Source of the DNA: Streptomyces sp. NBC_00539
GTDB taxonomy: Bacteria; Actinomycetota; Actinomycetes; Streptomycetales; Streptomycetaceae
Length of the DNA: 64,000 bases
NCBI RefSeq assembly: GCF_036346105.1
Contig: NZ_CP107811.1
Location: 5,165,501 to 5,229,500, forward strand
Direction of reading: 5' to 3'
A program made the position numbers and the translations under genes. A model generated the notes under the pieces. That model saw only the letters and a program-made list of their open reading frames with translations. It searched no databases and was not told the DNA's origin. Within the stretch, counting starts at the first letter, position 1. Every line of letters starts with the position of its first letter. Below, piece after piece: positions 1,775 through 16,840 of this stretch.

Positions 1775-2512
1775 ATGACGACGAAACCCCGTACCAGGGC
1801 GCGGTCCTTCGACGCCGCCGCCCCGCTGTACGCCGCCCACCGGCCCGGGTACCCCGGCGAGCTTTTCGACTCCCTGGAGGAGCTGGGCGGGCGGCCGCTG
1901 GACGGGGCGCGGGTGGCCGACGTCGGGGCCGGGACCGGGATCGCCTCCGGGGCGCTGAGCGCGCGCGGGGCCGACGTCGTCGCCGTCGAGCCCGGCGACG
2001 GGATGGCCGCCGAGTTCCGCCGCGCGCACCCCCGTATCCCGCTCGTGCGCGGTGACGGCGACCGGCTGCCCCTGGTGAGCGCCGGGTTCGACCTCGTCAC
2101 GTACGCCCAGGCCTGGCACTGGACCGACCCCGCGCGTTCCCTCCCCGAGGCCCGCCGCGTGCTGCGCCCCGGCGGCGCGCTCGCGCTGTGGTGGAACGAC
2201 ATGGACTACGCCGTCCCCTGGATCGCCGAGCAGGACGCACGGATCGCGGCCTTCCTCGACGCCGCCCCGGGTGTCGCCCCGCGCGGCCTGCCGCCCGAGC
2301 CGGCGTTCACCACCCGCGAGATCCGCTGGTCGCGCCGCGTCCCCCTGGACTCCCACCTCGCCAACCACGCCAGCCACTCCATGTTCCTGATGCTGGGCGA
2401 GGACCGCACCCGGGAGTTCCTGGACGCCGAACGCACCCGCCTGGAGGCCGTGTTCCCCGACGGCGTCGTCGAGGAGCGGTACGTCGTCACGCTCAGCGTC
2501 AGCGTCCTGTGA
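1775..2512 (+). CDS. Class I SAM-dependent methyltransferase
   Basis: A 245-aa methyltransferase of the UbiE/Methyltransf_11 type. SAM motif I (VADVGAGTG) is near residue 47, followed by the acidic VEPGDGM strand-2 end and a motif IV region (FDLVTYAQAWHW) near residue 108. The start has no Shine-Dalgarno sequence but a GACAAT hexamer 6 nt upstream, so the message is probably leaderless. The 3' end overlaps the convergent acyl-CoA dehydrogenase gene by 14 nt. Substrate is not deducible. Confidence 0.85.
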   Translation: MTTKPRTRARSFDAAAPLYAAHRPGYPGELFDSLEELGGRPLDGARVADVGAGTGIASGALSARGADVVAVEPGDGMAAEFRRAHPRIPLVRGDGDRLPLVSAGFDLVTYAQAWHWTDPARSLPEARRVLRPGGALALWWNDMDYAVPWIAEQDARIAAFLDAAPGVAPRGLPPEPAFTTREIRWSRRVPLDSHLANHASHSMFLMLGEDRTREFLDAERTRLEAVFPDGVVEERYVVTLSVSVL

Positions 2513-3497
2513 GCGGCGGTAGCGCCTCCAGCACCTCGGCGCGGCACTGCGACGGCGTGCCCCACGCGTCCCGCAGCGGGCGCGCCTTGCGCAGCCACAG
2601 CGAGAGGTCGAGTTCCTCCGTGTAGCCGACCGCACCGTGGACCTGGAGCGCCGTCATGGCCGCCGCGTACGCCGCCTCGCCCGCGGTGAGCTTCGCCGCC
2701 GCGACCTCGCCCCGCTCCAGCGACAGGGCGCCCGCCCACAGCAACGGCCGGGCGAACTCCAGGGCCATGAGCGTGTCCGCCAGCCGGTGCTTGACCGCCT
2801 GGAAGCCGCCGATGGGCGTGCCGAACTGGGTGCGCTGCTTCGCGTACTCCACCGTGCGGGCCAGCAGCGCCTCGCCCACGCCCAGGCACTGGGCCGCCGT
2901 CAGCAGGCGCGCCCACTCCAGCGCGGCCCGCGCCGCCCGCGCCACCCGGGGGCCCGCCGCCAGCGGCTCCTGCCCGGCGGGGTCCGGCCGGAACAGGCGC
3001 CGCGCCGGGTCCGTGGACGCCAGCGGTTCCCCGGGCCCACGTGCCAGCCACAGCCCGCCCTCCTGCGACACCCGGAACCGGTACGCCGCCGCGTCCGCGT
3101 CCAGGGCGTACGGGCCCCCGCCCGGCAGGGTCAGCGTGGCGAGCACCTCCCCCGCCAGCAGCCCCGGCAGGAACCGCTTCGCCAGCGTCCGGTCACCCAG
3201 CCGGGACAGCAGTACCGCCACCGCCGCCGTCTCCACCGCCGGGCCCGGCATCCCCGACCGGCCCCATTCCACGAAGCCGAACGCCGTCTCCACCGGCAGC
3301 GGCCCCAGCCCGTCGTACGCCTCGTCGGCGGCGAGCGCGAACAGCCCCGTACCGGCCGCCCGGGCCCACAGCGCCCGCCCGGGCCCGTGCGCGCCCGCGC
3401 CCCAGGCCCGTACCGCGGCCGGGACGTCCGCCGCGCCGAGCAGGGCGCGCAGCGTACGGGCGAAATCGCGCTGCTCGTCGGTCGGCAGGAAGCGCAT
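2499..3497 (-). CDS. Acyl-CoA dehydrogenase subunit, FadE32/FadE33-like
   Basis: A 332-aa protein, shorter than ordinary 380-aa acyl-CoA dehydrogenases, starting MRFLPTDEQRDFARTLR. The C-terminal ACAD fold is recognisable (KQRTQFGTPIGGFQAVKHRLAD, then LQVHGAVGYTEELDLSLWLRKA), but the YAGTNEIQR signature of the upstream paralogue is missing. In mycobacteria FadE31 pairs with the shorter FadE32 or FadE33 to make heteromeric enzymes acting late in sterol-ring breakdown. Its start overlaps the upstream gene's stop by one base (TGATG), giving tight translational coupling consistent with a 1:1 complex. Whether it corresponds to FadE32 or FadE33 cannot be decided here. Confidence 0.85.
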   Translation of the reverse strand: MRFLPTDEQRDFARTLRALLGAADVPAAVRAWGAGAHGPGRALWARAAGTGLFALAADEAYDGLGPLPVETAFGFVEWGRSGMPGPAVETAAVAVLLSRLGDRTLAKRFLPGLLAGEVLATLTLPGGGPYALDADAAAYRFRVSQEGGLWLARGPGEPLASTDPARRLFRPDPAGQEPLAAGPRVARAARAALEWARLLTAAQCLGVGEALLARTVEYAKQRTQFGTPIGGFQAVKHRLADTLMALEFARPLLWAGALSLERGEVAAAKLTAGEAAYAAAMTALQVHGAVGYTEELDLSLWLRKARPLRDAWGTPSQCRAEVLEALPPLTGR

Positions 3498-4642
3498 CAG
3501 CGGCGGCCCTTCGGGAGGCCGAGCAGCCGCTCGGCGATGATGTCGCGCTGGATCTCGTTCGTGCCCGCGTAGATCGGCCCGGCCAGCGAGAACACCCACG
3601 GCTCGGCCCACGCGCCGTCCGCCAGCTCCGCGTCCGGGCCCAGCAGGTCCAGTGCCGTCTCGTGGAGCGCGATGTCGTACTGGGACCAGAACACCTTGTT
3701 CAGGCTGGATTCGGCGCCGATCGTCTCGCCCGCCGCGAACCGGGCGGCGTTCGCCCAGGTGAACAACTCGTACGCGCGCGCCCCGACCACCGCGTCCGCG
3801 ACCCGGTCCCGCACCGCCGTGTCCCCGGGAGCGCCGGCCGCCTCCCACAGCGACACCAGTCGGCGGGCCGCCGCCAGGAAGCGGCCCGGGGAGCGCAGGG
3901 TGAGACCGCGTTCGTTGCCGGTCGTGGACATCGCGATCCGCCACCCCTGTCCCGGCTCGCCGATGACGTCCTCGTCCGGGACGAACACCTGGTCGAGGAA
4001 GAGCTCCGCGAAGGCGGGCTTGCCGTCGAGCCGGCCGATGGGCCGCACCGTCACCCCGGGCGCCCGCAGGTCGAACATCAGGTAGGTCAGGCCCTGGTGG
4101 GGTCCGGCCGCGCCCGGGTCCGAACGGAAGATCCCGAACGCACGGTCCGCGAACGCCGCCCGCGAGGACCACGTCTTCTGCCCGGACAGCAGCCAGCCGC
4201 CCTCCGTGCGCTCGGCCCGCGAGGTCAGCGAGGCCAGGTCCGAGCCCGCCTCCGGCTCCGACCAGGCCTGCGCCCAGATCACCTCGCCGCTCGCCATCGG
4301 GGGCAGCACCCTGGCCCGCTGCTGCTGCGTCCCGTGGGCCAGGAGGGTGGGGGCGAGCAGGCTGATGCCGTTCTGCGAGACGCGTCCGGGGGCGCCCGCG
4401 GCCCAGTACTCCTCCTCGAACACCAGCCAGCGCTCCAGGTCCACCCCCCGGCCGCCGTACTCCGCGGGCCAGGACACCACCGCCCAGCGGCCGGAGTGCA
4501 GCAGCGCCTCCCACGCGCGGTGCGCGGCGAAGCCCTCCGCCGTCTCCAGGGACGGCAAGGGCGAGGCGGGCACGTGCGCGGCGAGCCAGTCCCGGGCCTC
4601 GGCCCGGAAGGCCCGGACCCCGGCTGTGTGCGTCAGCTCCAT
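3497..4642 (-). CDS. fadE31: Acyl-CoA dehydrogenase, FadE31-like
   Basis: A 381-aa flavin acyl-CoA dehydrogenase. AQAWSEPEAGSDLASL (mid-domain flavin/substrate region), SGQKTWSS, and the C-terminal signature PIYAGTNEIQRDIIAERLLGLP are all present. Large stretches match what I recall of M. tuberculosis FadE31, including GVTVRPI, SNERG-like NERG and AESS.NKVFWS. ATG 4642 is chosen because GGGGAGG lies just upstream; a start 30 nt earlier would run into the operator palindrome. It forms an operon with the short partner ACAD and is divergent from ipdF. Role inferred: oxidation of a CoA thioester in HIP breakdown. Confidence 0.85.
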   Translation of the reverse strand: MELTHTAGVRAFRAEARDWLAAHVPASPLPSLETAEGFAAHRAWEALLHSGRWAVVSWPAEYGGRGVDLERWLVFEEEYWAAGAPGRVSQNGISLLAPTLLAHGTQQQRARVLPPMASGEVIWAQAWSEPEAGSDLASLTSRAERTEGGWLLSGQKTWSSRAAFADRAFGIFRSDPGAAGPHQGLTYLMFDLRAPGVTVRPIGRLDGKPAFAELFLDQVFVPDEDVIGEPGQGWRIAMSTTGNERGLTLRSPGRFLAAARRLVSLWEAAGAPGDTAVRDRVADAVVGARAYELFTWANAARFAAGETIGAESSLNKVFWSQYDIALHETALDLLGPDAELADGAWAEPWVFSLAGPIYAGTNEIQRDIIAERLLGLPKGRR

Positions 4643-4664
4643 CAGGCGCCCGCCTCCCCGCTTC

Positions 4665-4680
4665 CCTAACAAGTGTTAGG
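4665..4680. promoter_or_regulatory. Probable KstR2 operator (16-bp palindrome)
   Basis: CCTAACAAGTGTTAGG has perfect 7-bp arms and a 2-bp centre. It lies between divergent fadE31 and ipdF, directly upstream of the ipdF -10 hexamer at 4686-4691. A 13/16 identical copy lies at 14042-14057 in the other divergent junction of the cluster. The kstR2-like gene at 5543 is the only TetR gene nearby, so it is the likely ligand. Confidence 0.75.
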
Positions 4681-4685
4681 TAGGT

Positions 4686-4691
4686 TAACGT
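4686..4691 (+). promoter_or_regulatory. -10 hexamer of ipdF (TAACGT)
   Basis: TAACGT fits the TANNNT actinobacterial -10 pattern and ends 6 nt before the ATG at 4698. The leader would be absent, and the operator at 4665-4680 would occupy the space just upstream of the -10, so binding there should block transcription. Confidence 0.55.
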
Positions 4692-4697
4692 ACCGGC

Positions 4698-5516
4698 ATG
4701 AGCAGCGTCGAGGAGTCCGACCACACACCCCGCGACCGCGCACCCCGGTACACACCCGGGCACGGGCTGCTGGAAGGCCGCGCCGCCGTCATCACCGCCG
4801 CCGCCGGCGCCGGCATCGGCGGCGCCACCGCCCGCCGCTTCCTGGAGGAGGGCGCCCGCATCGTCATCGGCGACGCGCACGCCCGCAGGCTCAAGGAGAC
4901 CGAGACCGCCCTCGCCGCCGAATTCGGGGCGGACCGGGTCACCTCCCTGCCCTGCGACGTCACCGACGAGGAACAGGTGCGCGCCCTGTTCGCACACGCC
5001 GAACACGCCCACGGCGGCCTCGACGTCGTCGTCAACAACGCCGGACTCGGCGGCACGGCCGACCTCGTCGACATGGCAGACGAGCAGTGGGGCCGCGTCC
5101 TCGACGTCACCCTGAACGGCACCTTCCGCTGCACCCGCGCCGCCCTGCGCTCCCTCAAGGCGGCCCGAAGCGGCGGCGTCATCGTGAACAACGCCTCCGT
5201 CGTCGGCTGGCGCGCCCAGCGCGGCCAGGCCCACTACGCGGCCGCCAAGGCCGGCGTGATGGCCCTGACCCGCTGCGCGGCACTGGAGGCCGCGGAGTTC
5301 GGCGTACGGGTCAACGCGGTCGCCCCGAGCCTGGCCATGCACCCGCACCTGGTGAAGGTCACGAGCGGGGAACTCCTCGCCGAACTCACCGCCCGCGAGG
5401 CCTTCGGCCGCTACGCCGAGCCCTGGGAGGTCGCCAACGTCATCGTCTTCCTGGCCAGCGGCTACTCCTCCTACATGACGGGCGAGACCGTCTCCGTCAG
5501 CAGCCAGCACGCCTAG
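4698..5516 (+). CDS. ipdF: SDR dehydrogenase IpdF (HIP degradation)
   Basis: A 272-aa short-chain dehydrogenase with GHGLLEGRAAVITAAAGAGIG at the N-terminus, NNAGLGG, and the catalytic segment NNASVVGWRAQ...HYAAAKAGVMALTRC. These segments and the ending (SSYMTGETVSVS.QH) match my recollection of M. tuberculosis Rv3559c/IpdF. IpdF acts on a hydroxylated HIP-CoA intermediate. It is divergent from fadE31, followed by kstR2 and fadA6, the same neighbourhood as in mycobacteria. No Shine-Dalgarno is seen; the start appears leaderless. Confidence 0.9.
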   Translation: MSSVEESDHTPRDRAPRYTPGHGLLEGRAAVITAAAGAGIGGATARRFLEEGARIVIGDAHARRLKETETALAAEFGADRVTSLPCDVTDEEQVRALFAHAEHAHGGLDVVVNNAGLGGTADLVDMADEQWGRVLDVTLNGTFRCTRAALRSLKAARSGGVIVNNASVVGWRAQRGQAHYAAAKAGVMALTRCAALEAAEFGVRVNAVAPSLAMHPHLVKVTSGELLAELTAREAFGRYAEPWEVANVIVFLASGYSSYMTGETVSVSSQHA

Positions 5517-5530
5517 ACCACGCCTGGACC

Positions 5531-5542: not shown

Positions 5543-6157
5543 GTGCCAACGAACAAGAAGAAAACCCAGGTGACCGCATCGCCCGAGCGGCGCCGTGAAC
5601 TCCTCGACACCGCCGCGGAGGTCTTCGCCGCACAGGGCTACAACGCCACCACCGTCCGCAAGATCGCCGACGCCGCCGGCATGCTCGCCGGCAGCCTCTA
5701 CTACCACTTCGATTCCAAGGAATCGATGGTGGACGAGATCCTCTCGGCCTTCCTGAACGAGCTGTGGCAGGGCTACGACACCGTCCTCGCCGCCGGCCTC
5801 GGCCCACGGGAGACCATCGAGGCCCTCGTCACCGAATCCTTCCGCGAGATCGACCGGCACCGCGCCGCCGTCGCGATCTACCAGAAGGAGTCCCGCCACC
5901 TCTCGGCGCAGCCCCGCTTCCACTACCTCTCCGACTCCCAGCGCAAGTTCGAGGACGCCTGGCTGGGCACGCTGGAGCGCGGGGTGGCCGACGGGGTGTT
6001 CCGCGCCGACCTGGACATCCGCCTGACCTACCGCTTCGTACGCGACACGGTGTGGGTGGCGGCCTCCTGGTACCGGCCCGGCGGACAGCACAGCCCCGAG
6101 GAGATCGCCCGCCAGTACCTGTCGATGGTGCTGGACGGGATCGCCCTGCGCACCTGA
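5543..6157 (+). CDS. kstR2: TetR-family repressor KstR2
   Basis: A 204-aa TetR regulator. The N-terminal helix-turn-helix spans about residues 14-60 (TTVRKIADAAGMLAGSLYYHF, SKESMVDEIL). The ligand domain keeps features I recall from mycobacterial KstR2: AIYQKES, SQPRFHYL, FRADLDIRLTYRFVRDT.W and WYRPGG. KstR2 represses HIP catabolic genes and is released by HIP-CoA. GTG 5543 is used because no ATG is available and a -10-like GACAAT sits 6 nt upstream. Probable targets are the palindromes at 4665-4680 and 14042-14057, one of which controls its own operon. Confidence 0.88.
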   Translation: MPTNKKKTQVTASPERRRELLDTAAEVFAAQGYNATTVRKIADAAGMLAGSLYYHFDSKESMVDEILSAFLNELWQGYDTVLAAGLGPRETIEALVTESFREIDRHRAAVAIYQKESRHLSAQPRFHYLSDSQRKFEDAWLGTLERGVADGVFRADLDIRLTYRFVRDTVWVAASWYRPGGQHSPEEIARQYLSMVLDGIALRT

Positions 6158-6177: not shown

Positions 6178-7335
6178 ATGCCCGAGGCCTACATAGTCGA
6201 CGCGGTACGCACGCCCGTGGGGCGGCGCGGGGGAGGCCTGTCGGCCGTCCACCCCGCCGACCTCGGCGCGCACGTCCTGCGGGCCCTGATGGAGCGGTCC
6301 GGGGTGGACCCGGCGGCGGTGGAGGACGTGGTCTTCGGCTGCCTGGACACGGTCGGCCCCCAGGCGGGCGACATCGCCCGGACGGCATGGCTCGCGGCCG
6401 GCCTGCCCGAGGAGGTCCCCGGCGTCACCGTCGACCGGCAGTGCGGCTCCTCGCAGCAGGCGGTCCACTTCGCGGCGCAGGGCGTGCTCTCCGGAACCCA
6501 GGACCTGGTCGTCGCGGGCGGCACGCAGAACATGTCGATGATCCCGATCGCCTTCGCCTCCCGGCAGGCGGCGGAACCGCTCGGCCTCACGCAGGGGCCC
6601 TTCGCCGGCTCGGCGGGCTGGCGCGCGCGGTACGGGGACGCTCCGGTCAACCAGTTCCACGGCGCCGAGCTCATCGCCGCCAGGTGGGGGATCTCGCGCC
6701 GGGACATGGAGGAGTTCGCCCTCCGCTCCCACGAGCGGGCCGTGCGGGCCGCCGACGAGGGCCGCTTCGACCGGGAGACGGAAGCCTACGGGGACCTGAG
6801 CGCCGACGAGGGCCCGCGCCGCGACACCAGCCTGGAGAAGATGGCGGCCCTGCGGCCCGTGGTGGAGGGCGGCACCATCACCGCGGCCGTCTCCTCCCAG
6901 GTCTCCGACGGCGCCGCCGCGATGCTGCTGGCCTCCGAGCGTGCGGTCGCCGCGCACGGCCTGCGCCCGCGGGCCCGCATCCACCACCTGTCGGTGCGGG
7001 GCGAGGACCCCATCCGGATGCTGTCCGCGCCGATCCCCGCGACGGCGTACGCGCTGCGGAAGACCGGGTTGTCGCTGGACGACATCGACCTGGTGGAGAT
7101 CAACGAGGCGTTCGCCCCCGTCGTCCTCGCCTGGCTCAAGGAGACGGGCGCGGACCCGGACCGGGTCAACGTCAACGGGGGCGCCATCGCCCTGGGCCAC
7201 CCGCTGGGGGCGACGGGCGTGCGGCTCATGACCACGCTCCTGCACGAGCTGGAGCGCACGGGCGGCCGCTACGGCCTCCAGACGATGTGCGAGGGCGGCG
7301 GCCAGGCCAACGTCACCATCATCGAGCGCCTGTAA
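6178..7335 (+). CDS. fadA6: Thiolase FadA6 (acetyl-CoA C-acyltransferase)
   Basis: A 385-aa thiolase. The nucleophilic Cys is in VDRQCGSSQQ near residue 88; INEAFAP, GGAIALGHPLGATG (catalytic His) and the second Cys in QTMCEGGGQANVTIIERL complete the active site. The sequence matches FadA6 of the mycobacterial KstR2 regulon, which cleaves a beta-keto CoA thioester late in HIP degradation. Start ATG has GAGGAG 7 nt upstream. It lies 20 nt after kstR2 and is probably co-transcribed with it. Confidence 0.88.
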   Translation: MPEAYIVDAVRTPVGRRGGGLSAVHPADLGAHVLRALMERSGVDPAAVEDVVFGCLDTVGPQAGDIARTAWLAAGLPEEVPGVTVDRQCGSSQQAVHFAAQGVLSGTQDLVVAGGTQNMSMIPIAFASRQAAEPLGLTQGPFAGSAGWRARYGDAPVNQFHGAELIAARWGISRRDMEEFALRSHERAVRAADEGRFDRETEAYGDLSADEGPRRDTSLEKMAALRPVVEGGTITAAVSSQVSDGAAAMLLASERAVAAHGLRPRARIHHLSVRGEDPIRMLSAPIPATAYALRKTGLSLDDIDLVEINEAFAPVVLAWLKETGADPDRVNVNGGAIALGHPLGATGVRLMTTLLHELERTGGRYGLQTMCEGGGQANVTIIERL

Positions 7336-7590: not shown

Positions 7591-7794
7591 ATGGCACTTG
7601 GCACCGTGAAGTGGTTCAACTCGGAAAAGGGCTTCGGCTTCATCGAGCAGGACGGTGGCGGCCCGGACGTCTTCGCCCACTACTCGAACATCGCCACCCA
7701 GGGCTTCCGTGAGCTCACCGAGGGCCAGCGCGTGTCCTTCGACGTCACCCAGGGCCAGAAGGGCCCCCAGGCGGAGAACATCCTCCCCGCCTAA
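7591..7794 (+). CDS. Cold-shock domain protein (CspA family)
   Basis: A 67-aa single cold-shock domain protein, the usual length. RNP1 (KGFGFI) and RNP2 (VFAHYS) are intact, after the standard [11 protein letters not shown] opening; it binds single-stranded RNA/DNA and melts structure in mRNA. The start has CAGGAGA 7 nt upstream. A leader containing a terminator-like hairpin precedes it and a strong terminator follows, then a DEAD-box RNA helicase, a functionally matching partner in RNA remodelling. Confidence 0.95.
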
Positions 7795-7895: not shown

Positions 7896-9551
7896 ATGAC
7901 CAGCTCCAGCTCCGCACGACCCAGCCGCCGTCCCGCCCGGGGCCGAGGAGCGGCCCAGGGACGTCCGAAGGCTGGTGCGGGACGGCAGAAGTCCGCCCCC
8001 GCCGCCAGGCCCCTAGAATTCACCATGCCCGAACCGCTGACCCCGGCGCTGCCGCCGGTCGCCGCGTTCGAGGACATGGACATGCCTGAGGCGCTGCTGA
8101 AGACCCTCGCCGCCCAGGGCGTCACCGAACCCTTCCCGATCCAGGCCGCGACCCTGCCGAACTCCCTGGCCGGCCGTGACCTGCTCGGGCGCGGCCGCAC
8201 CGGCTCCGGCAAGACGCTGGCCTTCGGCCTGGCGCTGCTCGCCCGCACCGCCGGCCGCCGCGCGCAGCCCAAGTCGCCGCTCGCGCTGGTCCTCGTACCG
8301 ACCCGTGAGCTCGCGCAGCAGGTCACCGACGCGCTGGCGCCGTACGCCACCGCCGTCAACCTGCGCATCGCCACCGTCGTCGGCGGCATGTCGATCAACC
8401 GGCAGTCCGGCGCCCTGCGGCGCGGCGCCGAAGTGCTCGTCGCCACCCCCGGCCGGCTCAAGGACCTCATCGACCGCGGCGACGCGATCCTCGACGAGGT
8501 CGCGATCACGGTCCTCGACGAGGCCGACCAGATGACCGACATGGGCTTCATGCCGCAGGTCACCGCGCTGCTCAAGCAGGTCCGGCCCGACGGCCAGACC
8601 ATGCTGTTCTCCGCGACGCTGGACAAGAACATCGACAAGCTCGTCAAGATGTTCCTGACCGACCCGGTCGGCCACTCCGTCGACCCGTCGGCCGGCGCCG
8701 TCACCACGATGGAACACCACGTCCTGTACGTCATGGACGAAACCGACAAGAAGGCCGTGGCGACGCGCATAGCCGCCCGCGACGGCCGGGTGATCATGTT
8801 CGTGGACACCAAGCGGGGTGTCGACCGCATGGTCAAGAAGCTGCTGGCCGACGGCGTGCGCGCCTCCGGCCTGCACGGCGGCCGCTCCCAGCCGCAGCGC
8901 AACCGCACCCTGGACTGGTTCAAGACGGGCGAGGTCACCGCGCTCGTCGCCACCAACGTGGCCGCGCGCGGCATCCACATCGACGACCTGGACCTCGTCG
9001 TCAACGTGGACCCGCCCACCGACCACAAGGACTACCTGCACCGCGGCGGCCGTACCGCCCGCGCCGGGGAGTCCGGCAGCGTCGTCACCCTGGTCCTGCC
9101 CGACCAGAAGCGCGACATGACCCGCCTGATGTCGGACGCCGGGATCTCCCCGCGCACCGCGCAGATCAAGTCCTCCGACGAGGAACTGTCCCGCCTGACC
9201 GGCGCCAAGACGCCGTCCGGCATCCCGGTGGTGCTGGAGGTGCCGCAGCCCGCGCAGCCCAAGGCGCGTTCCGGCTCGGGCCGCCGCTCGGGCGGATCGC
9301 GTACGGGTTCGTCCGCGGGCGCGGCTCCGTCCGCCGGTGGTGGCCGCAGCCGCCGCTCCGGTGGCCCCGGCGCCGGGCAGGCTCCCGCCGCCGGTACGGG
9401 CCAGGCCCGCCGCGGACAGGCGGCCGGTCAGGGCTCCGGCTCGGGCGAACGCGGTCGGCGCAGCGGTGGCGCCCCCTCCGGCGGTGCGGCGGCGGCTTCT
9501 GCGCGCAGCCGCGTCGGTGGCGCGGGCCAGGGCCGGCGCCGGTCGGCCTGA
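7896..9551 (+). CDS. DEAD-box ATP-dependent RNA helicase
   Basis: A 551-aa DEAD-box helicase. Q motif (EPFPIQAATLP), Walker A (GRTGSGKT, about residues 101-107), PTRELA, DEAD (about 208-211), SAT, and the C-terminal motifs RGIHIDDLDLVVNVDPP and HRGGRTARAG are present. The last 110 residues or so form a low-complexity Gly/Arg/Ser/Ala tail typical of RNA-binding extensions. ATG 7896 is chosen for the upstream CAGGAGG; an earlier in-frame ATG lies inside the preceding terminator. It follows the cold-shock gene and may act with it on structured RNA. Confidence 0.93.
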   Translation: MTSSSSARPSRRPARGRGAAQGRPKAGAGRQKSAPAARPLEFTMPEPLTPALPPVAAFEDMDMPEALLKTLAAQGVTEPFPIQAATLPNSLAGRDLLGRGRTGSGKTLAFGLALLARTAGRRAQPKSPLALVLVPTRELAQQVTDALAPYATAVNLRIATVVGGMSINRQSGALRRGAEVLVATPGRLKDLIDRGDAILDEVAITVLDEADQMTDMGFMPQVTALLKQVRPDGQTMLFSATLDKNIDKLVKMFLTDPVGHSVDPSAGAVTTMEHHVLYVMDETDKKAVATRIAARDGRVIMFVDTKRGVDRMVKKLLADGVRASGLHGGRSQPQRNRTLDWFKTGEVTALVATNVAARGIHIDDLDLVVNVDPPTDHKDYLHRGGRTARAGESGSVVTLVLPDQKRDMTRLMSDAGISPRTAQIKSSDEELSRLTGAKTPSGIPVVLEVPQPAQPKARSGSGRRSGGSRTGSSAGAAPSAGGGRSRRSGGPGAGQAPAAGTGQARRGQAAGQGSGSGERGRRSGGAPSGGAAAASARSRVGGAGQGRRRSA

Positions 9552-9659: not shown

Positions 9660-10583
9660 CTACGACCGGACCAGCCTCGTCTGCAGCTTCGCCAGGGTCC
9701 GCAGGTCCAGGCCGAGGCCGTCGGTGAGGTAGCCGTAGAAGCCGCCGTAGTCCGCCTCCATCCGGGCGGTCGCGGCGTCCAGGTAGTCCTGGCGGACCTC
9801 CTGGAGCGGGATCAGCAGATCCGGGTCCTGCATCCGGCCCGACTGCTTGAGGCCCGCCCGCACCTGGGCGTCGTAGGCCGCGCGGAAGGTGTTCGAGGCC
9901 AGGTAGTCCTGCCCGGCGCCGCTCTCGGGGACGCCGAGCGCGCGCAGCAGCACGTAACTCACCCAGCCGGTACGGTCCTTGCCCGACGTGCAGTGGTACA
10001 GCAGCGGCCCCGTGCCGTCCGCGATCTCCCGCAGCGTCGCCGCGAACTGCGCCCGGTTCTCTGCGCTGGTCACGAAGGTGCGGTAGATGTCGCGCATGTA
10101 GGCCTCGGCGCGGCCGCCGCCGAGCATCTGCTCCTGCTCGGCGGGGTCGCCGCTGGAGAGGACGGTGAGCAGGGTCGCGTACAGGCCGAGGTCGCTGACC
10201 GGGCGCGAGGTGGGGGTGAGCCCCGCGGGCAGCCGGTCGGCGCCGTCGTAGCGGACCTCCAACGGGACGCGGAAGTCGACGGCCTTGGTGAGGCCGAGGC
10301 CGGAGACGGTGGTGAGGTCCGCGGCGGTCAGCTTGTTCAGCGCGTCGGAGCGGTAGACCAGCCCCTGGCGGACCTGCCCGCCGGTGTAGGTGCGGTAGCC
10401 GCCCAGGTCGCGGAAGTTGACCGCGCCCTGGAGGGGAATCTGACGGATCGTTTCTGCTGCCGTCCGGTGCAGCCCGGGGCGGACGGGCGCCCGCGCAGCG
10501 GAGGCTGCGGTGGCGGACACGGTGGTGACGGCGAGGGCGGCGGCGAGGGCCGCCGTCACCAGGCGGATACGGACACGGCTCAT
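9660..10583 (-). CDS. Secreted tyrosine/serine phosphatase (Y_phosphatase3 family)
   Basis: A 307-aa protein. Residues 1-30 are a Sec signal peptide (RIRLVTAALAAALAVTT...ATAASA). The catalytic P-loop is HCTSGKDRTG near residue 197, the HCxxGKDRTG signature of the PtpB/lipid-phosphatase-like family, and the N-terminal FRDLGGY motif is also present. It probably acts outside the cell on phosphoproteins or phosphoinositides. ATG 10583 has a GGAGGAGGGG-type site nearby. It lies 38 nt after ipdC on the same strand and may be read through, though it has no known part in sterol catabolism. Confidence 0.88.
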   Translation of the reverse strand: MSRVRIRLVTAALAAALAVTTVSATAASAARAPVRPGLHRTAAETIRQIPLQGAVNFRDLGGYRTYTGGQVRQGLVYRSDALNKLTAADLTTVSGLGLTKAVDFRVPLEVRYDGADRLPAGLTPTSRPVSDLGLYATLLTVLSSGDPAEQEQMLGGGRAEAYMRDIYRTFVTSAENRAQFAATLREIADGTGPLLYHCTSGKDRTGWVSYVLLRALGVPESGAGQDYLASNTFRAAYDAQVRAGLKQSGRMQDPDLLIPLQEVRQDYLDAATARMEADYGGFYGYLTDGLGLDLRTLAKLQTRLVRS

Positions 10584-10621: not shown

Positions 10622-11689
10622 TCACCCTGGTGGGGGCAGGGTCCCGCCGGCGTGCAGTCGTACGAGTGCGCTCTGTGCCTCGGCCATGACCCGGCCGACG
10701 AGTTCCGCGCAGGACGGGAGGTCCTCGATCACCCCTGCGACCTGCCCGGACGCCATGACACCGAGGTCCGTGCGGCCCTCGACCATGGACGCTTTGAGGA
10801 GCATCGGCGTGTTCGCGGCGAGCAGGACCTGGCTCCAGGACAGGTCCTTGCCGTGCTTCATCGCCAGCCCGTCCCGCACCATCCGCGACCAGGACAGGCC
10901 CGACAGCCTGCGGAAACCGGCCGCGTGGCGCACCGCCCGGGCCAGCGCCCGGGCGCGGCCGGCCCGCTCCAGGGAATCGACCAGCTCGCTGCGCAGCATC
11001 CGGTGCGGCAGCCCGTCGACGGCCGTGGTGACGGTGACGTCCTTGACGCCCGCCCTGAGGTACTCGGCCTTGACCGCGTCCGGGACGGTCGAATCGGAGG
11101 TGAGCAGGAAGCGGGTACCCATCGCGATGCCCGCCGCCCCGTAGGCGAGGGCCGCCACGAGGCCCCGGCCGTCGTGGAAACCGCCCGCCGCTATCACCGG
11201 GATGTCCACGGTGTCGACGACCTGCGGCAGCAGCACGGTCGTGGCCACCTCGCCGGTGTGTCCGCCGCCCTCGCCGCCCTGCACGATCACCGCGTCCGCA
11301 CCCCACGCCGCGACCTTCTCCGCGTGCCTGCGCGCCCCGACCGACGGGATGACGACCACCCCCGCGTCCCTGAGCCGGACGATCAGCTCCCGGGACGGCG
11401 CGAGCGCGAAGGACGCGACCCGCACCCCCTCGTCGATGATCAGCCGGGCCCGCTCGGCGGCGTCACCGGCGTCGGCGCGCAGGTTCACCCCGAACGGCGC
11501 GCCCGTACGGGACTTCACCTCGCGCACCGCGGCCCGCAGCTGTTCCAGCGTCATCGTCGCCGACGCCAGGATCCCCAGCGCGCCCGCGTTCGCCGACGCC
11601 GACACCAGCCGGGGGCCGGCCACCCATCCCATGCCGGTCTGCACGATCGGGTACCGGACCCCGACCAGCTCCGTCAATGCCGTCTCCAT
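10622..11689 (-). CDS. ipdC: Flavin-dependent oxidoreductase IpdC
   Basis: A 355-aa TIM-barrel flavoprotein of the nitronate monooxygenase/enoyl reductase family. Features include the N-terminal YPIVQTGMGWVAGP, the flavin phosphate segment VIVQGGEGGGHTG, and AAGGFHDGRGL...GAAGIAMGTRFLLT. It lies 4 nt downstream of ipdB, the same order as ipdA-ipdB-ipdC (Rv3551-Rv3553) in M. tuberculosis, where IpdC is needed for growth on HIP. A plain NMO-type annotation would be the alternative; context strongly favours IpdC. Confidence 0.85.
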   Translation of the reverse strand: METALTELVGVRYPIVQTGMGWVAGPRLVSASANAGALGILASATMTLEQLRAAVREVKSRTGAPFGVNLRADAGDAAERARLIIDEGVRVASFALAPSRELIVRLRDAGVVVIPSVGARRHAEKVAAWGADAVIVQGGEGGGHTGEVATTVLLPQVVDTVDIPVIAAGGFHDGRGLVAALAYGAAGIAMGTRFLLTSDSTVPDAVKAEYLRAGVKDVTVTTAVDGLPHRMLRSELVDSLERAGRARALARAVRHAAGFRRLSGLSWSRMVRDGLAMKHGKDLSWSQVLLAANTPMLLKASMVEGRTDLGVMASGQVAGVIEDLPSCAELVGRVMAEAQSALVRLHAGGTLPPPG

Positions 11690-11693: not shown

Positions 11694-12425
11694 TCAGACC
11701 CGTACTTCCCGCTCGCGCAGGCCCTCGGGGTCGATCACCTCGCGGATCAGGCGCAGCTCCTCGGCGCTCGGCTCCCGCGTGTACGGGACGTCGTCGGGCA
11801 CCGCCAGGTCGAAACCGGTGGCGTCCCGGACCTGGTCGACGGTGACCCCGGGGTGGAGGGAAGCCAGGCGCATCGAGCGGTCGGGGGTCCGGAAGTCGAA
11901 GACGCCGAGATCGCTGACCACCCGGGGCAGACGGTGGAAGCGCGTCACCCCGGCCGCCTCCGCCCGGTCGTAGCCGACGCCGCTGACCATGTCGACGCGC
12001 TCCACGAAGACCCGGGCCGAGTGCCGCGGGATCCAGTAACTCACCGGATTGTTGAGGGTGTTGACAGGTGCGCCGCGCACCCCCAGGAGCTGGCGGGCGG
12101 GCCGCTCCCAGTCCCCGATGCAGGAGATGTTCTGGTTGCCGTACCGGTCGATCTGGCTGGCGCCCATCATCACGTGCCGCCTGCCGCCGGTGACCATGGC
12201 GAGGTGACGGCGGTACGGGAGCCAGCCCTCCACCGTGCCGTCGAGCCCGACGAGCGCCGCCTCGCCGTCGGTGAGCAGCAGGTCGGGGCTGAAGGTCCGT
12301 TTCGCGAGCCGCGCGCCGACGGAAGGGACGAGGCCCATGGGGCTGGCGAGGACCTCACCGTCACCGCGCCAGGCCTCGGCGCAGGCGATCACACAGTATT
12401 CGGCGCGGGTCGGCTCACTGGTCAC
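11694..12425 (-). CDS. ipdB: IpdB, beta subunit of COCHEA-CoA ring hydrolase
   Basis: A 243-aa protein with the CoA-transferase family I fold. Segments SPMGLVPSVGARLAKRTFSPDLLLTDGEA, RRHVMMGASQIDRYGNQNIS, SGVGYD and RVVSDLGVFDF...SLHPGVT match my recollection of mycobacterial IpdB (Rv3552). IpdAB is not a transferase but hydrolyses ring C of COCHEA-CoA to MOODA-CoA. The GTG start overlaps the ipdA stop (GTGA), as expected for obligate heteromer subunits. Confidence 0.9.
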   Translation of the reverse strand: MTSEPTRAEYCVIACAEAWRGDGEVLASPMGLVPSVGARLAKRTFSPDLLLTDGEAALVGLDGTVEGWLPYRRHLAMVTGGRRHVMMGASQIDRYGNQNISCIGDWERPARQLLGVRGAPVNTLNNPVSYWIPRHSARVFVERVDMVSGVGYDRAEAAGVTRFHRLPRVVSDLGVFDFRTPDRSMRLASLHPGVTVDQVRDATGFDLAVPDDVPYTREPSAEELRLIREVIDPEGLREREVRV

Positions 12426-13273
12426 CGCTGCTCCTCGTGCCAGGCCTGGACGGCCGACTGGTAGGCCGACTCGCCCGGCCCGGACAGGAAGCGGGCGGCG
12501 AACTCGGGCCAGGGGGTGGACGCGTACAGCTTCTGAAAGGGCTCGTCCCGGCCGTAGTCGGGGACGCAGGAGGTGAAGTGCGCCCCGCCCGGGGTCTCCA
12601 CGACGCCGGTGACGCTGTGGCGGCTGACGAGCAGGGACTGCGGCGGCCCGGACTTGGCGAGGTCGGCGCTCTCCACGAGCTGCTCGCAGGAGACGTACGC
12701 CGCGTCGGCGGCCTCGCAGAACAGGTCGTCGAAGTACGGGTCGGGGCCCAGGTACTGGGCGTTGCCGAGACGGTCGGCGCGGTTCAGGTGGACCAGGGCC
12801 GCGTCCATGCGCAGGGCGGGGACGGCGACGAACTCCTCCGCGTCGGCGTAGGGGGAGGTGACGGTCCGCAGCTCGGGGTTGACGCGCATCACGTCGGAGC
12901 CGAGGCCGGCGCGCACGGGCAGGAACGGCAGCCGGTTCGCCGCGGCGTGCAGGCCCCACATGAACATCGCCTCGTCCAGCTCGGTCAGCGTGAACGCGCC
13001 CCGCTCGCGGGCGGCCCGGAAGTGCGGCTCCAGCGGGATCGAGTCGAGGGTGGCGAAGGGGGCGACGAGCCGGCGGATCCGCCCGGCCGCGGCCAGCAGC
13101 CCGACGTCCGGGCCGCCGTACGAGACGACGGTGAGGTCGGTGATCCCGGAGCGCAGCAGTGCCCGCACCAGCGCCATGGGCTTGCGCCGCGAGCCCCAGC
13201 CGCCGATGCCCAGCGTCATCCCGCTGCGCAGCCGCCCCACCACGTCCTCGGGGGTCATGGACTTGTCGGTCAT
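12422..13273 (-). CDS. ipdA: IpdA, alpha subunit of COCHEA-CoA ring hydrolase
   Basis: A 283-aa CoA-transferase-like subunit. The opening LRSGMTLGIGGWGSRRKPMA, then DLTVVSYGGPD, RLPFLPVRAGLGSDV, DPYFDDLFCEAA and VETPGGAHFTSCVPDYGRDEPF closely follow mycobacterial IpdA (Rv3551). With IpdB it opens the last carbocycle of the sterol nucleus. The ATG at 13273 overlaps the echA20 stop (ATGA) with GGAGCGGGAAGC in front. Ordinary acyl-CoA transferase is the obvious alternative but fits the neighbourhood less well. Confidence 0.9.
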   Translation of the reverse strand: MTDKSMTPEDVVGRLRSGMTLGIGGWGSRRKPMALVRALLRSGITDLTVVSYGGPDVGLLAAAGRIRRLVAPFATLDSIPLEPHFRAARERGAFTLTELDEAMFMWGLHAAANRLPFLPVRAGLGSDVMRVNPELRTVTSPYADAEEFVAVPALRMDAALVHLNRADRLGNAQYLGPDPYFDDLFCEAADAAYVSCEQLVESADLAKSGPPQSLLVSRHSVTGVVETPGGAHFTSCVPDYGRDEPFQKLYASTPWPEFAARFLSGPGESAYQSAVQAWHEEQR

Positions 13274-14019
13274 GCTTCCCGCTCCTTGCCGAAGGAGTCG
13301 CGGACCCGGTCGGCGACCCCACTGAGATTGGCCTCGAAGGTGAACCCCTGCTCGAAGCGGTAGCTGCGCCGTACGTCGACGGGGTCGATGCCGTTGATGG
13401 CCGCCTTGGCCAGCCGGATCAGGTAGCCGTCCTTGCGGGCGATCTCCGCCGCCAGCTCCAGGGCGGCGGCGCGGACCTCCGCGCGCGGGACGACCCTCCA
13501 CACCGAGCCGTGCGCGTGCAGCTCTGCCGCGGTCGCGGTACGGGAGGTGTAGTACAGGGCCCGCATCAGGTGCTGGGGGACCAGGCGGGCCAGGTGGGTG
13601 GCGGCGCCGAGCGCGCCCCGGTCCAGCTCGGGCAGGCCGAAGGCGGCGTCGTCGGAGGCGACGATCGCGTCCGCGTTCCCGGCCAGGCCGATCCCGCCGC
13701 CGAGGCAGAAACCGTGGACGGCGGCCACCACCGGCACCTCGCACTCGTAGACGGCGGCGAAGGTCTCGTAACAGCCGCGGTTCGCGCCGATGAGGGAGCC
13801 GTGGCCGCTGTCGCGCTGCATCTCCTTGATGTCGACGCCGGCGTTGAAGCCCCGGCCCTCGGCGGCGAGGACGACGCACCTAACGGACCGGTCGCGGCCG
13901 GCGGCGCGCAGGGCGTCGGCGAGTTCGTACCAGCCGCTCACCGGGAGGGCGTTGACGGGCGGGAAGTCGACGGTGACCAGCGCGATGCCCTCGTCGGGGC
14001 TGGAGGTGGAGACACCCAT
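13270..14019 (-). CDS. echA20: EchA20, crotonase-fold ring D hydrolase
   Basis: A 249-aa crotonase-family protein. EGRGFNAGVDIKEMQR (first oxyanion contact), NRGCYETFAAVYECEVPVVAAVHGFCLGGGIGL (second oxyanion loop), FGLPELDRGALGAATHL.RLVPQHLMR and YRFEQGFTFEANLSGVADRVRD match mycobacterial EchA20 (Rv3550), which opens the five-membered ring of HIEC-CoA before IpdAB acts. ATG 14019 is preferred over 14049 because the latter would place the start inside the operator. It heads the echA20-ipdA-ipdB-ipdC operon. Confidence 0.9.
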   Translation of the reverse strand: MGVSTSSPDEGIALVTVDFPPVNALPVSGWYELADALRAAGRDRSVRCVVLAAEGRGFNAGVDIKEMQRDSGHGSLIGANRGCYETFAAVYECEVPVVAAVHGFCLGGGIGLAGNADAIVASDDAAFGLPELDRGALGAATHLARLVPQHLMRALYYTSRTATAAELHAHGSVWRVVPRAEVRAAALELAAEIARKDGYLIRLAKAAINGIDPVDVRRSYRFEQGFTFEANLSGVADRVRDSFGKEREA

Positions 14020-14041
14020 GGGCGGATCAGCTACCTTTCCA

Positions 14042-14057
14042 CCAAACATTTGTTAGG
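14042..14057. promoter_or_regulatory. Second probable KstR2 operator
   Basis: CCAAACATTTGTTAGG is identical at 13 of 16 positions to the palindrome at 4665-4680, with one arm mismatch. It sits between echA20 (minus) and an SDR gene (plus), so one repressor could shut both operons. Confidence 0.72.
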
Positions 14058-14075
14058 TGAGGAAGGTAGCAGCCG

Positions 14076-14840
14076 ATGGAGCTCAAGGGGAGGGTGGTCG
14101 TCGTCACCGGCGGAACCCGGGGGGTGGGCGCGGGCATCGCGCGTGCGTTCCTCGCGGCGGGCGCGCAGGTGGTCGTCTGCGCGCGCCGCCCGCCGCGGCA
14201 GCCGGTCGAGGAGGACGGCCGGCAGGCGGCCTTCACCGCCGTCGACCTGCGCGAACCCCCCGCCGTCCAGGAGCTGTTCGAGGCGGTCGCCCAGCGGTAC
14301 GGGCGGCTGGACTGCCTGGTCAACAACGCGGGCGGAACCCCGTACCGGCTGCTGGGGGAGGGGGAGGCGGCGCGCCATGCCCGAGTCGTCGAGCTGAACC
14401 TCCTCGCCCCGATGACGGCCTCGCTCGCCGCCTACCCGTGGCTGCGGGGGTCCCGGGGCTCGGTCGTGATGATCGGCAGCGTCAGCGGCACCCGCCCCTC
14501 GCCGGGCACGGCCGCCTACGGGGCGGCGAAGGCGGGGCTGGAGAGCCTGGCCCGCTCGATGGCCGTCGAGTGGGCGCCCGAGGTACGGGTCAACTCGGTG
14601 GTCCCCGGCATGGTGCGGACCGAACTGGCCCACTTGCACTACGGGGACGAGGCGGGCGTCCGGGCGGTCGCCGCAACCGTTCCGCTGGGGCGGCTGGCGG
14701 AACCCTGCGACATCGGGGCGGCGGCGGTGTTCCTGGCCTCGGACCGGGCGGCGTACGTGAGCGGGGCGAGCCTGCTGGTGCACGGCGGCGGGGAGCGGCC
14801 CGCCTTTCTGGACGCGGCACATGTCAACAAGGAGGACTGA
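14076..14840 (+). CDS. SDR oxidoreductase (Rv3549c-like, sterol cluster)
   Basis: A 254-aa short-chain dehydrogenase: TGGTRGVGAG near residue 10, NNAGG, and a catalytic segment with Ser and YGAAKAGL (YxxxK) near residue 148. It is the first gene of a two-SDR operon divergent from echA20, as Rv3549c/Rv3548c are in M. tuberculosis, so a role in sterol-ring beta-oxidation is likely. Start ATG has GGAAGG at 14061-14066. The exact substrate is unknown. Confidence 0.85.
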   Translation: MELKGRVVVVTGGTRGVGAGIARAFLAAGAQVVVCARRPPRQPVEEDGRQAAFTAVDLREPPAVQELFEAVAQRYGRLDCLVNNAGGTPYRLLGEGEAARHARVVELNLLAPMTASLAAYPWLRGSRGSVVMIGSVSGTRPSPGTAAYGAAKAGLESLARSMAVEWAPEVRVNSVVPGMVRTELAHLHYGDEAGVRAVAATVPLGRLAEPCDIGAAAVFLASDRAAYVSGASLLVHGGGERPAFLDAAHVNKED

Positions 14841-14841
14841 G

Positions 14842-15753
14842 ATGGGGCTTGCCGAGGGACGCGTGGTCATCGTGACGGGCGCGGGCCGGGGGCTGGGCCG
14901 CGCCCACGCGCTGGCCTTCGCGCAGGAAGGGGCGCGGGTCGTGGTCAACGACCTCGGGGTGGGACTGGACGGGCTGCCCGGCCCCGACAGCCCGGCCGCC
15001 CGGGTGGTGGCCGAGATCGAGGCGGGGGGAGGACGGGCGATCGCGCACGGCGGGGACATCGCCACCGGCGAGGGCGCGGCGTCCCTGGTCGAGTGCGCAC
15101 TCGGGGCGTTCGGGCGCCTGGACACGCTGGTCAACAACGCCGGGTTCCTGCGCGACCGGATGCTGGTGAACCTGGAGGAGGACGACTGGGACGCGGTGGT
15201 CCGGGTCCACCTGAAAGGCCACTTCCTGCCGCTCAAGCACGCGGCGGCGTACTGGCGGGCCGAGGCGAAGGCGGGGCGGCCGGTCGCGGCGCGGGTGGTC
15301 AACACCTCGTCCGGGGCGGGACTGCTGGGCTCGGTCGGGCAGGGGAACTACAGCGCCGCCAAGGCGGGGATCCTGGCGCTGACGCTGGTCGCGGCGGCGG
15401 AGATGGGCCGCTACGGGGTCCAGGTCAACGCCGTCGCGCCGGCCGCGCGGACCCGGATGACGGAACGGACCTTCGCCGAGGCCATGGCGGCGCCGGGCGC
15501 GGGCGGCTTCGACGCGATGGCCCCCGAGAACGTGTCGCCGCTGGTGGTGTGGCTGGGCTCGGGGGCCTCGGAGGGGGTGACGGGGCGCGTCTTCGAGGCG
15601 GAGGGGGGCCGGATCACCGTGATGGAGGGCTGGCGGCCCGGGCCGACGGCCGAACGCGCCGCGCGCTGGACCCCGGCGGAGGCGGGCGAGGCGGCGGCGA
15701 AGCTCCTGGCGCGCGCGCAGCCCCCGGGGGCGGTGTACGGGGCGGGGGAGTAG
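14842..15753 (+). CDS. SDR oxidoreductase (Rv3548c-like, sterol cluster)
   Basis: A 303-aa SDR resembling the dehydrogenase domain of peroxisomal multifunctional beta-oxidation enzymes: TGAGRGLGRAHALAFA near residue 12, VVNDLGVGLDG, NNAGFLRDRM, and YSAAKAGI (YxxxK). ATG 14842 follows AAGGAGG by 6 nt and the previous stop by one base. It probably oxidises a beta-hydroxyacyl-CoA. The C-terminal 50 residues are not SDR core and are rich in Glu and Ala. Confidence 0.85.
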   Translation: MGLAEGRVVIVTGAGRGLGRAHALAFAQEGARVVVNDLGVGLDGLPGPDSPAARVVAEIEAGGGRAIAHGGDIATGEGAASLVECALGAFGRLDTLVNNAGFLRDRMLVNLEEDDWDAVVRVHLKGHFLPLKHAAAYWRAEAKAGRPVAARVVNTSSGAGLLGSVGQGNYSAAKAGILALTLVAAAEMGRYGVQVNAVAPAARTRMTERTFAEAMAAPGAGGFDAMAPENVSPLVVWLGSGASEGVTGRVFEAEGGRITVMEGWRPGPTAERAARWTPAEAGEAAAKLLARAQPPGAVYGAGE

Positions 15754-15979
15754 GCGTCGCCCGCGGCGGCTGCCCGGGGCCCGCCGTGCGGAAGCGGCCG
15801 GGGGAGGGGGCGCGGCGGCTCCCGGGGCCCGTCGCAGGGGCCGGGGCGGCGGACGCGCCCCGGGCCCGGCCCCCTGGCGAGGGGTCGGGTCCGGAGGCTT
15901 CGCGCGTGCGTCGCGATATGACTACCCGCTACGCCCACGCGCTGAACCATCCTGGCCCCGACTTCCCGTCGGCGATCCT
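15754..15979. other. Intergenic region without recognisable gene
   Basis: A GC-rich 226-nt gap between the second SDR and the hsaD-like gene. No convincing terminator or promoter could be defined. Confidence 0.4.
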
Positions 15980-16840
15980 GTGATCATGCCGATTCACACG
16001 TACGAGAACACCTCCCGCACCGCCGCGGCCGGTCCGCTCACCCTCCACTACCACGAGGCCGGCCCCGCCGACGCCCCCGTACTCGTCATGCTGCACGGCG
16101 GTGGCCCGGGCGCCTGCGGCTGGGGCAACTTCGCCGACAACCTGCCCCACTTCGCCCGCCGGTTCCGTACCCTGCTCATCGACCAGCCCGGCTACGGCCG
16201 CTCCGACCTGCCGGAGCCCGACCGCGACTACTTCTCGTACAGCGCCCACGCCGTCGTCGCCCTCATGGACGGACTGCGCATACCCCGGGCCCACTTCCTC
16301 GGGACCTCGCTCGGCGGCGGCGTCGCCGCCCGGATCGCCCTCGACCACCCCGACCGGGTGGGGGGACTGCTGCTGAACGCCCCCGCCGGGCTCTCCCTGA
16401 ACCTCTTCTCCGCCGAGCCGACCGAAGGCCTGCGGCGGCTCATCGAGTTCGCCGGCTCGCCCGAGCCGACCCGCGAGCAGATGCGGGCCTTCCTCACCGC
16501 CCTCGTGCACGATCCGTCCCGCGTCACCGACGCACTCGTCGAGGAGCGCCACGCCGAGGCCGTCGACCCGCGGGCCCGGCTGGGCAGCGCCCGGATGGCA
16601 GCCTCGTTCGCCAAGTGGCCGCAGGGTTCGCTGCTGTGGCGCGAGGCCCACCGCATCAGCTGCCCGGTGCTGCTGACCTGGGGACGGGAGGACCGGGTCA
16701 CCCCCGTCGACGGGGCGTTCGTGGCGCTCAAGGCGATCCCCGACGCCCGGCTCCACGTCTTCCCCCGCTGCGGCCACCTGGTCCAGGGCGAGGCCGCCGA
16801 AGACTTCCAGCGCCTGGCCACCGACTTCTTCCTCCACTGA
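15980..16840 (+). CDS. hsaD: Meta-cleavage-product hydrolase, HsaD-like
   Basis: About 285 aa, alpha/beta hydrolase. HGGGPGACGWGNF (oxyanion region), nucleophile GTSLGGG near residue 114, Asp in WGREDRVTPVDG and His in RCGHLVQGE form the catalytic set. The openings TSRTAAAGPLTLHYHEAG and APAGLSLNLF...PTEGLRRL parallel M. tuberculosis HsaD, which hydrolyses the C-C bond after ring A cleavage (4,9-DSHA). The start is either GTG 15980 or ATG 15986; neither has a clear ribosome site. The hsaC dioxygenase and hsaAB are not in this window, so a related aromatic-ring hydrolase cannot be excluded. Confidence 0.8.
   Translation: MIMPIHTYENTSRTAAAGPLTLHYHEAGPADAPVLVMLHGGGPGACGWGNFADNLPHFARRFRTLLIDQPGYGRSDLPEPDRDYFSYSAHAVVALMDGLRIPRAHFLGTSLGGGVAARIALDHPDRVGGLLLNAPAGLSLNLFSAEPTEGLRRLIEFAGSPEPTREQMRAFLTALVHDPSRVTDALVEERHAEAVDPRARLGSARMAASFAKWPQGSLLWREAHRISCPVLLTWGREDRVTPVDGAFVALKAIPDARLHVFPRCGHLVQGEAAEDFQRLATDFFLH

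Follow-up and report, generated by a model that had tools for sequence, protein, structure and literature searches.

The window analyzed here, 64,000 nucleotides of Streptomyces sp. NBC_00539 (contig NZ_CP107811.1, positions 5,165,501 to 5,229,500), contains at 2499-15753 an 11-gene core of the KstR2 type for the degradation of the steroid C/D-ring intermediate HIP (3aα-H-4α(3′-propanoate)-7aβ-methylhexahydro-1,5-indanedione). The core is organized in two divergent operon pairs: fadE31-fadE32 / ipdF-kstR2-fadA6, and echA20-ipdA-ipdB-ipdC / two genes for short-chain dehydrogenases/reductases (SDRs) of the Rv3549c and Rv3548c types. We lean toward the view that this core is one part of a ring C/D pathway whose genes are divided between two places, the other being an island 2 Mb away, and that many Streptomyces use the pathway without ring A/B catabolism, either scavenging HIP or degrading a HIP-like acid.

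The genes of the window were called by GC content at the codon positions, followed by family scans against NCBIfam, Pfam and PDB. The role names rest on synteny with, and identity to, the Nocardia farcinica cluster (46-70% across the core); the Rv numbers are those of Table 1 of PMC5380842. The core genes and their two predicted operators are:

2499..3497, minus strand: FadE32-type acyl-CoA dehydrogenase (ACAD) beta subunit, 332 aa; best NCBIfam model IpdE2 (108 bits, cut-off 450)
3497..4642, minus strand: FadE31-type ACAD alpha subunit, 381 aa; 64% identical to Nocardia FadE31, 79% to that of NBC_00841
4665..4680, unstranded: predicted KstR2-type operator CCTAACAAGTGTTAGG, between fadE31 and ipdF; conserved in relatives
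4698..5516, plus strand: IpdF-type SDR, 272 aa; PRK07831 (449 bits, cut-off 336), 67% to Nocardia
5543..6157, plus strand: KstR2-type TetR repressor, 204 aa; PDB 2ibd (5e-70) and KstR2 4w97/4w1u (1e-57)
6178..7335, plus strand: FadA6-type thiolase, 385 aa; PRK07801 (700 bits, cut-off 591), 68% to Nocardia
10622..11689, minus strand: IpdC-type FMN protein (FabK/nitronate-monooxygenase family), start approximate; PF03060 (283 bits), TIGR03151 (241 bits)
11694..12437, minus strand: IpdB, start approximate; PDB 6co6_B (5e-91)
12422..13273, minus strand: IpdA; PDB 6co6_A (3e-98)
13270..14019, minus strand: EchA20-type crotonase; PRK07938 (417 bits, cut-off 260), 70% to the Nocardia gene
14042..14057, unstranded: predicted KstR2-type operator CCAAACATTTGTTAGG, between echA20 and the Rv3549c-type gene
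14076..14840, plus strand: Rv3549c-type SDR, role by position; PRK07856 (376 bits, cut-off 255)
14863..15753, plus strand: Rv3548c-type SDR, role by position; PRK07791 (470 bits, cut-off 373)

The gene families that a preliminary description of this stretch had named are present close to where it had placed them, and the divergent, mycobacterium-like gene order that it had proposed was borne out. This also holds for its KstR2-type regulator: PDB matches to other TetR proteins begin only at 1e-20, far behind 2ibd and KstR2. Five proteins of the cluster exceed the curated NCBI cut-offs (PRK07831, PRK07801, PRK07938, PRK07856 and PRK07791), although the names of these models say nothing of IpdF, FadA6 or EchA20, whose roles are assigned by synteny and by 67-70% identity to the Nocardia genes. 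Both FadE proteins score below their NCBIfam cut-offs. The FadE31-type protein is placed within the FadE31 group of the tree (support 100/98). The FadE32-type gene adjoining it, previously described as a short FadE partner, encodes a protein 60% identical to the one in the FadE32 position of NBC_00841 and 46% to that of Nocardia. The IpdC-type protein, 67% identical to the product of the Nocardia gene, is below the cut-off of the FabK model TIGR03151 (241 vs. 453), and the PDB matches of the EchA20-type protein are to general crotonases, none of them an EchA20 structure.

IpdA is the single match of its kind in the 7.5-Mb genome, and its NCBIfam matches are to transferase models, below cut-off; no NCBIfam model matched IpdB in the family scan of the window proteins. 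IpdB carries the motif TDGEA, in which a glycine aligned to Gly57β stands where CoA transferases have their catalytic glutamate, a feature given for IpdAB in PMC5380842.

In the KstR2 regulon of Mycobacterium tuberculosis and Rhodococcus (Rv3548c-Rv3564), the same echA20, ipdA, ipdB, ipdC, fadA6, kstR2, ipdF, fadE31, fadE32 and two SDR genes are found, and the two divergent promoters and the IpdB glycine are common to both. Unlike that regulon, the present cluster contains no FadD3, IpdE1 (FadE30), IpdE2 (FadE33) or partner crotonase gene, it has cold-shock, helicase and phosphatase genes inside, its operators occur at two places genome-wide and hsaD is the sole neighboring ring A/B gene. The HIP clusters of Streptomyces sp. 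NBC_00841 and BHT-5-2, both in plasmid records, agree with the present one in core genes and in their relative order, with 60-88% protein identity; both add IpdE1, IpdE2 and a PRK08290-type crotonase, and NBC_00841 also FadD3.

Judging by homology, IpdC and IpdF would prepare the acyl-CoA, EchA20 would hydrolyze ring D and IpdAB, whose substrate is COCHEA-CoA, ring C, FadA6 would remove acetyl-CoA, and FadE31-FadE32 together with the SDRs would carry on the beta-oxidation. A streptomycete grown on HIP accumulates MOODA (4-methyl-5-oxo-octanedioic acid; Hashimoto and Hayakawa 1977, as cited in PMC5380842), and oxidation of the CoA ester of this compound has been proposed for FadE32, alone or with FadE31 (PMC5380842, Table 1; PMC6678751). 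The cluster is equipped for the opening of rings D and C but lacks the ligase, the first ACAD pair and the crotonase, which would take HIP as far as the carboxyl-CoA stage; the simplest reading is a split pathway, with the island as its entry. Activation and the first dehydrogenation of the propanoate chain would most likely be provided by the island, kept or lost together with the core. The substrate, HIP or a HIP-like bicyclic acid, would not be made from sterols by the strain itself: it would be scavenged or reach the core through a feeder of other origin.

An operator-like palindrome, CCWAACRNNYGTTWGG, occurs once in each of the two divergent promoters. The search was started from what we take to be the mycobacterial KstR2 motif; with up to one mismatch, 4665-4680 and 14042-14057 are the sole two places in the whole 7.5-Mb genome, and the pattern read backwards, as a control, matched one place. 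Two exact operators, and no more, were found in 36 of 40 IpdA regions of other Streptomyces. These regions, spanning ~15.5 kb on one side of IpdA and 4.5 kb on the other, with genes beyond uncounted, were hand-picked from the higher-scoring part of the list of 210 genomes with IpdA-grade matches, not at random. Of the four exceptions, L072 is truncated where its contig ends, L087 has a rearranged cluster, and L083 and L084 are without kstR2; among the four operator sites of these last two, three have a mismatch. The predicted operators fit control by a KstR2-type repressor. With L072 excluded from the gene counts, all 11 core genes (matches of at least 45% identity) are present in 35 of 39 regions, an in-cluster IpdE1 in eight and the partner crotonase in six.

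The distribution of the pathway was followed in one set of 296 Streptomyces genomes, identical in every search, with cuts set by us in the gaps between scores. The core gene ipdA is present in 210 of these genomes, so that the cluster is not unusual in the genus; 222 genomes matched at 1e-20, of which 12 (1e-22 to 1e-27) were removed as other transferases and five (1e-74 to 1e-86) were retained. In a sample of the phylum, an IpdA match at 1e-40 was obtained in 16 of 149 genomes. True IpdE1 (at least 620 bits, next best 505) is found in 47 genomes. The search for HsaC matched 77 genomes at 1e-30, and 26 of them are HsaC-grade (>330 bits, next 290; all below the NCBI cut-off of 450). These sets are strictly nested, 26 in 47 in 210; 163 genomes, this one included, therefore have IpdA without HsaC-grade matches or true IpdE1. 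Because scoring in these wide searches was confined to the top 4 to 8 first-look candidates of each genome, an occasional gene may have been missed. One such case may be G038, which is not among the true IpdE1 genomes and has an in-cluster IpdE1 match of 68% (region L067). Two adjacent PRK08290-type crotonase matches lie beside this IpdE1; the G038 gene may be broken or unscored. In the titles and abstract openings of the papers listed by literature searches, no description of this cluster across Streptomyces was found.

Searching the genome with the IpdE1 and FadD3 proteins of other Streptomyces clusters led to C1:3.11-3.14 Mb, where an island occupies C1:3110755-3139697. The preliminary description had found no fadD3 in the window; a FadD3-family ligase, the candidate HIP-CoA ligase, opens this island 2 Mb away (C1:3110755-3112425; 802 bits, cut-off 657). 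An ACAD at 3136560 groups with actinobacterial IpdE1 and not with FadE31. The island further contains thiolase-like and ChsH2-like proteins, two crotonases, an IpdE2-like ACAD, an F420-type reductase, a flavin monooxygenase (FMO), a zinc alcohol dehydrogenase (ADH), an HsaB-like flavin reductase (186 bits, cut-off 230), an ADP-forming ligase, a glyoxalase-fold protein, a protein kinase and a TetR protein with a PF19352 domain. This conserved catabolic island numbers about 20 genes: across 10 genomes selected because they carry it, 18 genes are shared by every one of the 10, and another three by 8 or 9. The IpdE1-like ACAD was rejected as a vertical orthologue of IpdE1, because the scores are bimodal (at least 620 bits vs. 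at most 505).

Core and island occur together. With the ligase at 1e-200 as the marker of the island (six weaker matches dropped), the ligase is present in 200 of the 296 genomes, IpdA in 210 and both in 198 (Fisher p 8e-58, relatedness uncorrected); when the weaker matches are added, IpdA is found in 203 of 206 ligase genomes. The two ligase genomes without IpdA, G001 and G079, are assemblies that are 79% and 78% complete, and four of the 12 IpdA genomes without the ligase have true IpdE1. Among the 249 genomes without true IpdE1, IpdA is present in 142 of the 145 with the island-type ACAD vs. 21 of the 104 without it. As a control, the 51 genomes with lower-scoring relatives of HsaC showed no association with IpdA (40/51 vs. 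170/245, p 0.24). On an rpoB tree of 30 genomes, chosen by label and not at random (19 with neither, 8 with both, 3 with IpdA only), the core changes state 8 times, the island 7 times and the two as a pair 9 times; an equally good fit was reached in 2 of 20000 independent simulations.

Several points, this choice of genomes among them, weigh against the island as the entry to the core. Eight core genomes lack both an island-grade ligase and true IpdE1, although five of them match the island-type ACAD. The IpdE1-like ACAD forms a distinct branch and is only 57.5% identical to the IpdE1 of NBC_00841, where that of Nocardia has 70%; its grouping with IpdE1 has a support of 89/96, short of the mark of the tool, and the Novosphingobium IpdE1 falls outside the group. 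The ligase tree gives no clean split of FadD3 from two other ligases of the genome, and the IpdE2-like protein is a weak match (41% to that of NBC_00841, in a comparison with fetched stretches and not genome-wide). No KstR2-type operator was found in the island within 2 mismatches, and because of this the island was rejected as part of the KstR2 regulon. Furthermore, the FMO, zinc ADH, F420-type reductase, ADP-forming ligase, glyoxalase-fold protein and protein kinase are superfluous for a simple HIP entry. Finally, a further match at 1e-120 turned up in 15 of the 47 true-IpdE1 genomes, in 11 cases plainly of the island type; the island is therefore not simply a replacement.

Part of this evidence would also suit a non-steroid core. 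In most of the carrier Streptomyces, the core could be a central ring-opening funnel for a common acid containing a hydrindane or another bicycle (e.g., a terpenoid or a polyketide), for which the island makes a HIC-CoA-like thioester, and the steroid degraders of the genus would combine it with the hsa/ksh/kstD block and the true FadD3, IpdE1 and IpdE2. The strict nesting of the three gene sets, the joint presence of ligase and core in 198 genomes, most of them without HsaC, the recurrence of 18 genes in an island that exceeds the needs of HIP entry and the retention of this island beside true IpdE1 in steroid degraders all favor such a funnel. Coronafacic-acid-like compounds are, speculatively, among the substrates that we presume it could serve. 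Joint presence, however, is no proof of a single pathway, and the remnants described below point to a block once present in this clade, so the core need not predate the use of steroids; the streptomycete substrate on record in PMC5380842 is HIP. We regard the funnel as possible but hold it only tentatively.

The right-hand side of the core retains traces of ring A/B genes:

15857..15948, plus strand: putative fossil of a ring A/B block, consisting of an intergenic hairpin and the last 20 bases of an IclR gene; recognized by nucleotide matches to relatives
15980..16840, plus strand: solitary HsaD-type hydrolase; NF045632 (398.2 bits, cut-off 400)

In three relatives (G278, G083 and G074), a ring A/B block lies at the same chromosomal place, to the right of the Rv3548c-type gene and up to trypsin, chorismate mutase and aminopeptidase genes. 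It starts with a hydratase, an acetaldehyde dehydrogenase and an aldolase (hsaEGF type), a KshA_C Rieske oxygenase and a 2Fe-2S reductase (kshB type), and continues with the IclR gene, hsaA, hsaD, hsaC, hsaB and a kstD-type gene; in G173, the fetched part begins at hsaD and has the same order from there. The families of the block were scanned in G278 only, where HsaA and HsaD are above the NCBI cut-offs and the KstD and hydratase models below theirs. The window shares the flanking genes, of metal-peptidase-like (16873-17763), trypsin, chorismate mutase and aminopeptidase type, but of the block itself only the altered hsaD and the 92-bp fossil. The KshA and HsaA genes are absent at the locus where these relatives have them (no genome-wide search was made for either). 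In G078, hsaD likewise stands alone at the locus, and G134, G071 and G054 have no hsa gene at this place. Among 80 named Streptomyces loci, several of them cut by contig ends, two have an HsaD match: A1136 and one at 61%.

In relatives, the counterpart of the fossil lies between the kshB-type and IclR genes: the identity over ~90 bp is 82-86% in G278, G083 and G074 (E 5e-20 to 5e-24) and 80% in G012, with no match in G161. The stretch is also found in core-only relatives that lack both the block and hsaD. The coding end of IclR, of which the fossil holds the last 20 bases, is conserved as far as G161, G098, G259 and G023, and the IclR remnants of relatives are graded: a whole gene in L197, the last 24-45 codons in L070, L071 and L196, less elsewhere and none in L130. 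We read these traces to mean that the ring A/B block was deleted in this strain and also in several relatives: an adjoining block would once have been present and then lost, leaving the altered hsaD. Two alternatives, that the stretch is no more than an old terminator with the block inserted around it, or that hsaD was copied into place, were set aside because the stretch enters the conserved 3' end of IclR and graded IclR fragments occur in relatives. Immediately ahead of hsaD there may be the tail of an HsaA, but it is too short for a firm statement; among the matches listed, the others around hsaD are to flanking genes, or short and weak.

The remaining HsaD has kept the Ser-Asp-His triad, which we take to be catalytic, with N changed to T before the Ser and W to L after the His. 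Of 120 columns invariant across nine HsaD proteins from intact blocks (Nocardia included), 14 are changed in it and 18 in the HsaD of G078, whereas single Streptomyces members of the nine change 0 to 6 of 120-126 columns and Nocardia 48 of 168. The ratio of nonsynonymous to synonymous substitution rates (dN/dS) of HsaD against G078 is 0.35, compared with 0.17-0.26 in four pairs from intact blocks. Six core genes were open to comparison and gave 0.11-0.24, but the ratio is also high for the aminopeptidase (0.29) and the phosphatase (0.46). The enzyme may have acquired a new substrate or be under relaxed constraint.

The same data bear on the question of decay. If the cluster were the decaying leftover of an earlier steroid pathway, persisting by inertia since the ring A/B genes were lost, then the deletion fossils, the raised dN/dS of the altered HsaD and the lack of FadD3, IpdE1/IpdE2 and the partner crotonase in the cluster would all be accounted for. 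Such a remnant is nevertheless very doubtful: the dN/dS of the six core genes is low, all 11 core genes persist in 35 of 39 full regions, both operators are exact, and 163 of the 210 core genomes without HsaC-grade matches and true IpdE1 are many for transient remnants.

At the opposite extreme, the missing steps could be encoded elsewhere and the strain could mineralize sterols completely. The preliminary description had predicted from this cluster that the strain can finish degrading sterol rings, a claim that is partly supported: the C/D-ring families are there, and completion is not implied by the cluster. It had named the absence of a HIP-CoA ligase or of ring A/B genes from the genome as grounds for refutation; the FadD3-family ligase counts in its favor, HsaC and the state of the ring A/B locus against it. 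The C/D-ring core, the FadD3-family ligase, the HsaB-like flavin reductase of the island and an HsaD adjoining the core would speak for a complete degrader, as would a KstD-family flavoprotein at C1:6144572-6146206, 47% identical to the KstD-type protein of a relative. Against this, no HsaC match was obtained in the genome at 1e-10 with NF045631 (13 of 13 candidates scored), the ring A/B block at the locus appears deleted apart from hsaD, and true IpdE1, missing from this genome, occurs in all 26 HsaC-grade genomes. With HsaC not found and the block deleted, we set aside a single intact sterol pathway; a complete degrader with scattered genes is highly unlikely. The split ring C/D pathway without ring A/B catabolism remains the reading that we favor.

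Three further genes, unmentioned in the preliminary description, break into the cluster:

7591..7794, plus strand: cold-shock protein; CspE/CspD models, below cut-off
8025..9551, plus strand: DEAD-box RNA helicase; RhlE1/DbpA models, below cut-off
9660..10559, minus strand: tyrosine-phosphatase-family protein; PF13350 (213 bits)

The cold-shock gene is found in 24, the helicase in 28 and the phosphatase in 17 of the 39 related regions, and relatives of the phosphatase (57-58%) also adjoin the hsa blocks of G259 and G023. Farther along, at 22025-24845 of the window, lie two genes that by eye we take to be a pyridoxal-phosphate decarboxylase and a lysine/ornithine N-monooxygenase-like gene, presumably as in siderophore loci.

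A published survey reported 55 of 57 Streptomyces genomes to be without steroid pathways (PMC4810484), whereas 210 of the 296 genomes sampled here carry ipdA, the key gene of the lower pathway. Either the scavenging of a steroid intermediate released by other bacteria of the soil is widespread among Streptomyces, or the HIP enzymes known from textbooks also serve a purpose unrelated to steroids. The operator and the co-occurrence of core and island give these alternatives a concrete regulon and a concrete partner locus.

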